Shown one piece after another: positions 101-62,675 of a stretch of 64,000 nt of DNA. The notes below the pieces were generated by a model. It was not told where the DNA came from and searched no databases. It saw only the letters and a program-made list of their open reading frames with translations. Position numbers and translations under genes: made by a program. The DNA lies in assembly GCA_015066935.1 (NCBI GenBank), contig SVNK01000001.1:1-64000 (forward strand), given 5' to 3'. The DNA is from Ruminococcus sp. (GTDB taxonomy: Bacteria; Bacillota; Clostridia; Oscillospirales; Ruminococcaceae). Each line of letters starts with the position of its first letter. Positions within the stretch are counted from its first letter, which is position 1.

Positions 101-338
101 TGACAGAAGACTTGTACATCTGTACAAATTTGAGATTGTCGATAAACATTGCTATTTGCGGACGACCAATGGTCGTCCCTACATTTATACACACAAAACA
201 GCCAATCTGTAGGGATGCCCAATGGGCATCCGCATATAATTGTATTTGTAAATCGGCTTTTTCTACAGCCAGAAGACTTGTACATCTGTACAAGTCTTTT
301 TTTGTTGCCAAAATCTGCGAAGTATGGTATAATATAGG
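101..338. repeat. Intergenic repeat, copy 1: terminator hairpin, palindromic core, terminator hairpin, promoter
   Basis: Nearly identical to 1069-1305. Contains AGAAGACTTGTACATCTGTACAA on both sides of the core 132-270 and the palindromes GGACGACCAATGGTCGTCC and GGATGCCCAATGGGCATCC. Confidence 0.9.
305..333 (+). promoter_or_regulatory. Sigma-A-like promoter TTGCCA-N17-TATAAT
   Basis: Hexamers at 305-310 and 328-333, upstream of the ORF at 390. Confidence 0.65.
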
Positions 339-1068: not shown

Positions 1069-1305
1069 TGACAGAAGACTTGTACATCTGTACAAATTTG
1101 AGATTGTCGATAAACATTGCTATTTGCGGACGACCAATGGTCGTCCCTACATTTATACACGCAATACAGCCAATCTGTAGGGATGCCCATTGGGCATCCG
1201 CATATAATTGTATTTGTAAATCGGCTTTTTCTACAGCCAGAAGACTTGTACATCTGTACAGGTCTTTTTTGTTGCCAAAATCTGTGGTGTGTGGTATAAT
1301 ATAGG
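1069..1305. repeat. Intergenic repeat, copy 2
   Basis: Near-identical to 101-338, including both flanking hairpins and the promoter. Confidence 0.9.
1272..1300 (+). promoter_or_regulatory. Sigma-A-like promoter TTGCCA-N17-TATAAT
   Basis: Same promoter as copy 1, upstream of the ORF at 1347. Confidence 0.65.
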
Positions 1306-2767: not shown

Positions 2768-3185
2768 TCTTCAGAATGCTGCAAAAATCCTTTCAGAAGG
2801 CGGATACACCTGCGTTATATGCAGCGATAACGATGTGCAGACCAGCAATCAGAGAGGTGTAGCTCCGCTTCTGAAATGGCTTGACGAAACGAAAAATCTG
2901 TCGGATTACTCTGCGGCTGACAAGGTTGTGGGGAAAGGTGCGGCGTATCTTTATATCCTCCTTGAAATAAAGGAGCTTTATGCACATGTTATCAGTCGTC
3001 CCGCATACGACCTTCTGCAAAAGTACGGTATTCCCGTTTCGTACACAACTATGACAGAACTTGTAAGGAATCGTGACAATACAGGCTTTTGTCCCATTGA
3101 ATCGGCGGTCATTACTATCGACAACCCTCACGAAGCATTGAATGCTATCAGAAAAAAACTCGAAAATATGAAAGTTTGCAGGTGA
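2751..3185 (+). CDS. DUF1893-type protein
   Basis: Overlaps the previous gene; AAKILSEGGYTCVICSDNDVQTSNQRGVAPLL pattern typical of DUF1893. Confidence 0.75.
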   Translation: MQTMNNLQNAAKILSEGGYTCVICSDNDVQTSNQRGVAPLLKWLDETKNLSDYSAADKVVGKGAAYLYILLEIKELYAHVISRPAYDLLQKYGIPVSYTTMTELVRNRDNTGFCPIESAVITIDNPHEALNAIRKKLENMKVCR

Positions 3186-3190
3186 TTATT

Positions 3191-4318
3191 ATGGAAAAAA
3201 ATGAAATCTTTGACGTGTCAAAACTCGGCTTCGGCCTTATGAGACTCCCCGAAAAAGACGGTGAAATCGACTACGACCATGTCTGTCGTATGGTTGATAA
3301 ATACATGGAGGCAGGTCTGAATTACTTTGATACGGCTTATGTATACCACAGCGGAAAATCCGAAGTTGCCGCAAGAGAATGTCTTGTAAAAAGATATCCC
3401 AGAGAAAGCTTTAAAATCGCCACAAAACTGCCGTCATGGTGTATGAAATCAAAAGACGACAGAGACAGAATCTTCAACGAACAACTCGAAAGAACAGGCG
3501 TCGATTATTTCGATTTCTACCTGCTTCACTCCCTTGAGGACGGCAATAACTATGATACTTACGAGCAGCTTGACTGCTTCAACTGGGGATTGCAGAAAAA
3601 ACGTGAAGGAAAAATAAAGCATTTCGGCTTTTCATATCACGGTACTCCCGAACTGCTCGAGGTCGTTCTCGACAGACATCCTGAAATTGAGTTCGTACAG
3701 ATTCAGCTGAATTATGCCGACTGGAAAAACCCTATCGTTCATTCCGGTGAGCTGTACGAAATCCTGAGCAGACGGAATGTTCCGATGATTATTATGGAGC
3801 CTGTCAAAGGCGGAACGCTTGCCTCGCTTATGCCTGAACTCGAAGCTAAACTCAAAGCTGCACGTCCCGATTCTTCAATCGCTTCATGGGCTATGAGATT
3901 TGTAGGCTCTCTTGACGGTATTATAACAATTCTTTCAGGAATGTCCAATGACGAACAGATGCAGGATAACCTCAATACCTTCACAAACTTTGAACCTCTT
4001 TCCGACAGCGAAAAAATGCTTATCGAAGAAGTAAACGAGGTTATGTTCAATTCGCCGCTTATCGGCTGTACATCTTGCCGTTACTGCTGCGACGGATGTC
4101 CGTCAGGGATAAATATTCCCGAAGTTTTCCGTGTGCTCAATACTATAAGACTCTACGGCGAGGAGTGGCGCTCGGGAAATGTCTACAAGGTTCTTACAGA
4201 AAAAAGCGGAAAGGCAAAGGATTGTATTGCCTGTGGTCAGTGTGAAAGTGTGTGTCCGCAGCATCTTTCAATAATCGAGCTGCTCGCTGAAGCTTCGGGA
4301 CACCTCGATAAAGAATAA
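3191..4318 (+). CDS. Aldo/keto reductase with C-terminal 4Fe-4S domain
   Basis: KLGFGLMRLPEKDGEIDYDHV, NYFDTAYVYHSGKSE, and Cys clusters CTSCRYCCDGCP and CIACGQCESVCP. Confidence 0.9.
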   Translation: MEKNEIFDVSKLGFGLMRLPEKDGEIDYDHVCRMVDKYMEAGLNYFDTAYVYHSGKSEVAARECLVKRYPRESFKIATKLPSWCMKSKDDRDRIFNEQLERTGVDYFDFYLLHSLEDGNNYDTYEQLDCFNWGLQKKREGKIKHFGFSYHGTPELLEVVLDRHPEIEFVQIQLNYADWKNPIVHSGELYEILSRRNVPMIIMEPVKGGTLASLMPELEAKLKAARPDSSIASWAMRFVGSLDGIITILSGMSNDEQMQDNLNTFTNFEPLSDSEKMLIEEVNEVMFNSPLIGCTSCRYCCDGCPSGINIPEVFRVLNTIRLYGEEWRSGNVYKVLTEKSGKAKDCIACGQCESVCPQHLSIIELLAEASGHLDKE

Positions 4319-4336: not shown

Positions 4337-4369
4337 AACCGCAGTGATTTTTTACTAATCACTGCGGTT
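4337..4369. terminator. Terminator-like hairpin, left copy
   Basis: AACCGCAGTGATTTTTTACTAATCACTGCGGTT just downstream of the aldo/keto reductase. Confidence 0.75.
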
Positions 4370-4524
4370 GAGATTGTCGATAAACATCGTTGTTTGCGGG
4401 CGAACGCAGTTCGCCCCTACACTATAATACGAATAATAGGCATTTGTAGGGGACGGCGCACCCCAAGGGTACTTCCGTTGGGCGTCCACGACGTCCCGTT
4501 AATATACAGCTTTTTCTACAGACT
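4370..4524. repeat. Dispersed intergenic repeat core, diverged copy
   Basis: Begins GAGATTGTCGATAAAC, ends TTTTTCTACAG; internal palindrome GGGCGAACGCAGTTCGCCC. Confidence 0.85.
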
Positions 4525-4526
4525 GA

Positions 4527-4560
4527 AACGCAGTGATTTTTTACTAATCACTGCGGTTTT
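4527..4560. terminator. Terminator-like hairpin, right copy
   Basis: ACGCAGTGATTTTTTACTAATCACTGCGGTTTT, duplicates the left hairpin. Confidence 0.75.
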
Positions 4561-62162: not shown

Positions 62163-62255
62163 GTAAACATCGTTTCAAATCAAATGTCAAGCGGACGACC
62201 ATTGGTCGTCCGCAGATACATTATACCGCAAATCGGATTTTTGCAGTCTACAGGA
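62163..62255. repeat. Dispersed intergenic repeat, degenerate copy
   Basis: GTAAACATCGTT left end, GGACGACCATTGGTCGTCC palindrome, AAATCGGATTTTTGCAGTCTACAG right end. Confidence 0.7.
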
Positions 62256-62326
62256 CGCTCTATAACCAAATATTTCACACCATATAAATATTCAGAAATT
62301 TTTTCGGATTTTTTTCAAAAAACCCC

Positions 62327-62381: not shown

Positions 62382-62466
62382 GCGAGTGTGCTGGAATAGG
62401 CAGACAGGCACGTTTGAGGGGCGTGTGTCGAAGGACGTATGGGTTCAAGTCCCATTACTCGCACCA
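62382..62466 (+). tRNA. tRNA-Leu (anticodon GAG), CCA encoded
   Basis: GCGAGTG/TACTCGC acceptor stem, anticodon loop TTGAGGG, long variable arm, GGGTTCAAGTCCC T-arm, CCA end. Confidence 0.95.
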
Positions 62467-62500: not shown

Positions 62501-62533
62501 ATAAGCAAAACAGCTCCTCATAACAGGAGCTTT

Positions 62534-62675
62534 GAGATTGTCGATAAACCACATTGCAATCAGAATCCAAGCGGACGACCAATGGTCGTCCCTACATTTA
62601 TACACGCAAAATTGTCAATCTGTAGGGATGCCCATTGGGCATCCGCATTTACATTGTGTACCTTATATAAAGACT
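62534..62675. repeat. Dispersed intergenic repeat core, GAGATTGTCGATAAAC family
   Basis: Same left end as 132 and 1100, GGACGACCAATGGTCGTCC and GGATGCCCATTGGGCATCC. Confidence 0.85.

Follow-up and report, generated by a model that had tools for sequence, protein, structure and literature searches.

A probable IS1182-type MITE in Ruminococcus sp. and the proposed duplication of its terminator hairpin target

The repeat at 4337-4558 and related copies in the window

The analyzed window is a stretch of 64,000 nucleotides located on contig 7 of the 2.1-Mb genome of Ruminococcus sp. (hereafter G000). A short repeat bordered by two copies of one hairpin was found in this window between two convergent genes. 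The locus includes the following features:

3185..4318, plus strand: aldo/keto reductase gene with a C-terminal 4Fe-4S domain; the stop lies 18 bp upstream of the left hairpin
4337..4369, no strand: left hairpin copy, AACCGCAGTGATTTTTTACTAATCACTGCGGTT, with a 13-bp stem; a minus-strand terminator score is retained
4370..4525, plus strand: MITE of 156 bp, containing no ORF, with the ends GAGATTGTCGATAAA and TTTTTCTACAGACTG
4370..4384, plus strand: left terminal inverted repeat, GAGATTGTCGATAAA
4398..4416, no strand: internal REP-like palindrome, GGGCGAACGCAGTTCGCCC, read from the sequence
4511..4525, minus strand: right terminal inverted repeat, which reads CAGTCTGTAGAAAAA on the minus strand
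4526..4558, no strand: right hairpin copy with one mismatch (AAACGCAG...); together with a T-rich tract it gives a plus-strand terminator score
4566..4973, minus strand: 135-aa convergent ORF, beyond the element

Of the 33 positions in the hairpins at 4337-4369 and 4526-4558, 32 are the same in both, which bears out the duplicate reported around this core in a preliminary description of the locus, with the right copy at 4526-4558. When folded, the segment 4337-4369 forms a single stem-loop from end to end. A terminator scan gave a minus-strand call for the left copy and a plus-strand call for the right one. The pair at 4340/4529 was the only one found when the whole window was scanned for duplicated palindromes located no more than 2.6 kb apart. 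The two inverted repeats of the MITE match each other at only 10 of 15 positions. No RNA family was found in an Rfam search of the window.

Exact matches to the core GAGATTGTCGATAAAC were found at positions 132, 1100, 4370, and 62534, and the number of near-matches to this core was equalled by no shuffle. The additional copies and their hairpins are as follows:

107..131, no strand: degenerate left copy of the hairpin, bordering the MITE at 132
132..272, plus strand: MITE copy of 141 bp
273..298, no strand: right hairpin copy, AAGACTTGTACATCTGTACAAGTCTT, with a T-tract after it
1075..1099, no strand: degenerate left copy of the hairpin, bordering the MITE at 1100, within a 202-bp duplicated block
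1100..1240, plus strand: MITE copy, a segmental duplicate of the insertion at 132
1241..1266, no strand: right hairpin copy of the MITE at 1100
62163..62265, plus strand: degenerate MITE fragment lacking the GAGATTGTCGATAAAC end; borders approximate
62508..62533, no strand: hairpin adjoining a truncated MITE on the left
62534..62650, plus strand: MITE copy that keeps the left end and has lost the right inverted repeat; approximate 3' border

Around the MITEs at 132 and 1100, the flanking hairpin is AAGACTTGTACATCTGTACAAGTCTT and not the one at 4337; their left hairpin copies match AAGACTTGTACATCTGTACAAGTCTT at 23/25 and 22/25 positions, respectively. Thus, the different duplicated hairpin previously noted at these two positions is confirmed. 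Both copies lie within a single 202-bp block (hairpin, MITE, and hairpin) that is duplicated at 101-302 and 1069-1270 with 98% identity, and were therefore counted as one insertion. Each of these blocks is followed by a promoter-like TTGCCA-17-TATAAT. The copies at 62534 and 62163 had both been described as directly following terminators; the former has a hairpin on its left only, its right end being lost, and the latter is a degenerate fragment. A tRNA-Leu (GAG) gene is located at 62382-62466, with the two MITE remnants on either side.

Distribution of the MITE and candidate transposases in the genus

The left end of the MITE was also found on contigs 5, 12, and 17 of G000, and 14 times in the genome of one sister species (G011). 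In agreement with the MITE class, the element is short (130-190 bp), non-coding, bounded by inverted repeats, and present in many copies in both genomes. A weak match on contig 10 of G000 (L025) proved to be unrelated. No copy of the MITE was found in the phage records searched.

Both ends could be read in 25 MITE copies from the genomes of the genus. By our own reading of the tabulated copies, matching hairpins are present on the two sides in 19 of these copies, the flanking hairpins are clearly different in two (L020 and L022), and a hairpin is present on one side or on none in the remaining four. A lack of flanking duplication at most copies, which had been named as a possible objection, was thus not observed. 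At L001, L006, L013, L014, L018, L019, and L023, the hairpin varies between sites and matches on both sides within each site; L014 and L019 have a hairpin type in common. The copy L020, from G011, has the left context and the right hairpin of the 202-bp block described above, together with another left hairpin.

Another insertion sequence, starting about TGTATAATGTAGTAAGATAGTATACAG and with an ORF beginning MPWRNKT..., was found at the contig ends L015, L016, L021, L024, L026, L029, L030, and L031 of G011. It targets the centre of REP-like palindromes, including those inside MITE copies, and its interior is absent from the assembly. The ORF that follows the MITE left end at L015, L016, and L021 (ATGCCATGGAGGAAT...) was first read as a partner transposase. 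This candidate was rejected, being part of a different insertion sequence that enters the centre of REP-like palindromes.

Transposases matching DDE_Tnp_1_6 were found in genomes of the genus, several of them enclosed by TCAGNCTGTCNAAAAA-type ends and by long hairpin direct repeats (38 bp at L037, 28 bp at L046). These proteins score 382-403 bits against the IS1182 model NF033551, above its curated cut-off of 270, and their Pfam matches are DDE_Tnp_1_6, DUF772, and DDE_Tnp_1. As is characteristic of the IS1182 family, the autonomous elements carry a single DDE transposase ORF enclosed by terminal inverted repeats, and those with these ends are found at palindromic targets. The MITE ends fit the consensus of these insertion sequences, CAGNNTGTNNANAAA, apart from an initial G at the left end. 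No PF13751 or IS1182 protein match was found in G000 or G011; we therefore infer the partner from relatives, other genomes of the genus having such matches. In G000 and G011, either the MITE is orphaned or the assemblies lack the transposase. In the full-length insertion sequences, subterminal hairpins were observed directly inside the inverted repeats (L037: 1377-1420 and 2850-2888; L046: 1358-1400); in this position, the A5/T5 of the repeat could act as the T-tract of an outward terminator.

Hairpins as duplicated targets

In total, 80 loci were obtained by scanning genome contigs. In about half of them, the inverted repeats are adjoined by exact direct repeats, which are nearly always palindromes of highly varied sequence and length, for example 20 bp at L071, 39 bp at L111, and 64 bp at L121, the last being one hairpin with a 30-bp stem. 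Duplicated hairpins were found at about 40 IS1182 loci in many Bacillota, and additionally in Enterococcus plasmids, Streptococcus phages, and Providencia. A hairpin adjoins 133 of 135 IS ends versus 32 of 645 random positions (5%). T- or A-tracts, as in intrinsic terminators, accompany 47 of 56 targets, compared with 18% of random positions.

Among 59 IS and MITE sites surveyed together, the duplicated target is palindromic in 55, versus a mean of 1.5 and a maximum of 6 in shuffles. For one of these sites (L202), the automatic choice of repeat was wrong, the true repeat being a 26-bp hairpin. The centres of the duplication and of the palindrome lie no more than 1 bp apart in 54/58 sites, and the two lengths are correlated (Pearson 0.72). 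This correlation is loosened by A-T pairs at the stem base, which are counted in the palindrome and not always duplicated. Some duplications end within a longer, A/T-extended palindrome (23 of 35 bp at L179), so that the term "whole hairpin" is approximate at the A-T base pairs. At the level of sequence, these sites show that palindromes of almost any sequence are recognized as targets and that duplication length follows hairpin length.

The length of the duplication ranges from 18 to 64 bp (median, 26 bp) and coincides with the hairpin; the value of roughly 30 bp proposed earlier was therefore not retained. IS1202 elements reportedly generate duplications of roughly fixed length, about 24-30 bp. 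A similar fixed-length duplication, combined with a mere preference for terminators and with the hairpin match as a by-product, would agree with the observed median. However, the length spread, the nearly coincident centres, and the occurrence of both the 64-bp (L121) and the 20-bp (L071) duplication within one transposase family speak against it. Given this range of lengths, a long duplication of fixed size, as in IS1202, was discarded, and this explanation is considered very improbable.

The same hairpin is present on both flanks of 42 of the 55 full-length elements as classified by the script, and of a 43rd, L108, which was misassigned as "different" and carries a 37-bp hairpin repeat. The two hairpins differ in 12-13 of the 55. 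Recombination between copies, misassembly, and joining of two targets are indistinguishable as sources of such differing ends; if the hairpin is duplicated on insertion, the mixed elements (these insertion sequences and the MITEs L020 and L022) require recombination between copies or misassembly. A hairpin at one end unlike that at the other was observed in the IS1182 elements L075, L079, L081, L083, L091, L100, L103, and L104.

Agreement of hairpins within copies, their difference between copies, and the few mixed copies would also be expected if the flanking hairpins were carried by the element itself, or had been made alike through gene conversion of its two ends, with no target duplication. 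This was analyzed using empty-site queries in which the flanks were joined with one hairpin. ISEfa7-type elements of Enterococcus plasmids have duplicated hairpins, and two exact uninterrupted sites with a single hairpin were found for them, one matching at 465/465 bases (AP026606.1, NZ_AP026602.1) and the other at 463/463 bases (NZ_LR134109.1 and many other records). Because both are 100% identical to the flanks, the ancestor had one hairpin, insertion made two, and nothing was lost. Thus, sites already carrying two hairpins before insertion, which would have spoken against target duplication, were not met where they could be looked for, and the gene conversion of ends suggested in the preliminary description is unneeded. 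Moreover, the hairpins of different copies are unrelated in sequence and have local T-tracts. Membership of the hairpins in the mobile unit, or their equalisation, is accordingly considered very improbable.

A search of as many as 125 genomes of the genus yielded no strict empty site for the copy at 4337, L001, or L006, the relatives being too diverged; for the window's own copies, only diverged relatives are available. At the orthologous sites, several diverged relatives have one terminator and no MITE; at the site corresponding to the window copy, the orthologous gene is followed by a single terminator hairpin of other sequence. This arrangement is compatible with target duplication by the MITE and is not decisive.

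Duplication of a whole palindromic repeat resembles, by general analogy, the integration of CRISPR spacers, but a single-strand or Cas1/casposase-like integrase is very improbable, since IS1182 DDE transposases are encoded by the elements that share these ends and duplications, and a Cas1-type gene was seen in none of them.

Proposed mechanism and relation to known elements

The repeat at 4370-4525 is most probably an IS1182-family MITE that was inserted at an intrinsic-terminator hairpin by an IS1182-type DDE transposase supplied in trans, with duplication of the hairpin (probability of about 0.87, as judged from sequence comparisons). The earlier suggestion of terminator-targeted insertion with target duplication is thereby supported. 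In the proposed mechanism, the target hairpin would be extruded as a cruciform, and the transposase would join the transposon ends to it at its two 5' feet, leading to duplication of the stem-loop. The T-tracts remain outside the duplicated hairpins, so that each copy at 4337-4558 still scores as a terminator for transcription from the far side. With the terminator score kept on both sides, the insertion would be nearly neutral for both convergent genes, and this may account for the spread of such elements with little harm. Additionally, the duplicated hairpin could be used as an insertion signature in genome annotation.

The length of target duplication is usually taken as constant for a transposase and set by the spacing of active sites. 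A spread of 18-64 bp that tracks the hairpin is possible with a cruciform junction and impossible with a rigid double-strand stagger. The possible in vivo use of extruded cruciforms as integration targets by some transposases thereby becomes directly open to plasmid-target tests. It is somewhat probable that IS1182-family transposases read DNA shape, attacking extruded hairpins at a point that differs by subgroup: attack at the 5' feet would duplicate the stem-loop, attack in the loop would duplicate the loop, and attack at the 3' feet would lose the stem-loop, as in IS1272. If so, duplication length is a property of the target, not of the enzyme. In ISfinder, IS1182 duplications are given as 0-60 bp; the variable length may therefore already be on record, with no hairpin explanation attached.

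The staphylococcal elements IS1272 and TnSha1 (PMC5678879; PMC4923244) belong to the IS1182 family by annotation, have inverted repeats starting with TCAGGCTGGGACA, and, like the elements described here, target hairpins, often terminators, that share no primary-sequence consensus. IS1272 replaces its target hairpin (Wan et al., PMC5678879), and TnSha1 deletes it (Furi et al., PMC4923244). In contrast to the deletion by IS1272, which leaves no duplication, the hairpin is kept and duplicated in the present elements, which thus do not show stem-loop replacement of the IS1272 type. The outcome of attack at both 5' feet was drawn by Wan et al. as a hypothetical "pathway b," and no report of this pathway was found in the literature searched. 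Over 48% of its length, the IS1272 transposase is only about 27% identical to that of the genus. At L248 and L249, relatives of IS1272 from Enterococcus and Cytobacillus plasmids, A-/T-tract remnants with no hairpin were observed outside the ends, as expected from a replaced terminator hairpin.

ISEfa7, an IS1182-family element of Enterococcus, has the ends CAGACTGTAGACAAA, a transposase about 49% identical, and duplications of whole hairpins; unlike the window element, it is full-length and autonomous rather than a MITE. ISPpu9 and IS1397 are likewise inserted into palindromic intergenic repeats, but these REP-targeting elements recognize a particular REP sequence, whereas for the present elements any hairpin serves and is duplicated.

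A further IS1182 subgroup of the genus, with GGWGCTGTTGACAAA-type ends (NF033551, 381 bits), also has hairpin targets. Unlike the MITE group, it appears to enter the loop, splitting the arms and duplicating only 3-5 loop bases, a pattern present at five or six sites, one of which reads CTGTCC-ATATC-GGACAG. In this small sample, the insertion resembles pathway c of the published model (PMC5678879). In the transposase tree, the IS1272 relatives and the loop subgroup are placed apart from the duplicating group, with the deep order unsure because of long branches. Loci of the loop subgroup observed in the genus include L251, L252, L253, L256, L266, and L268.
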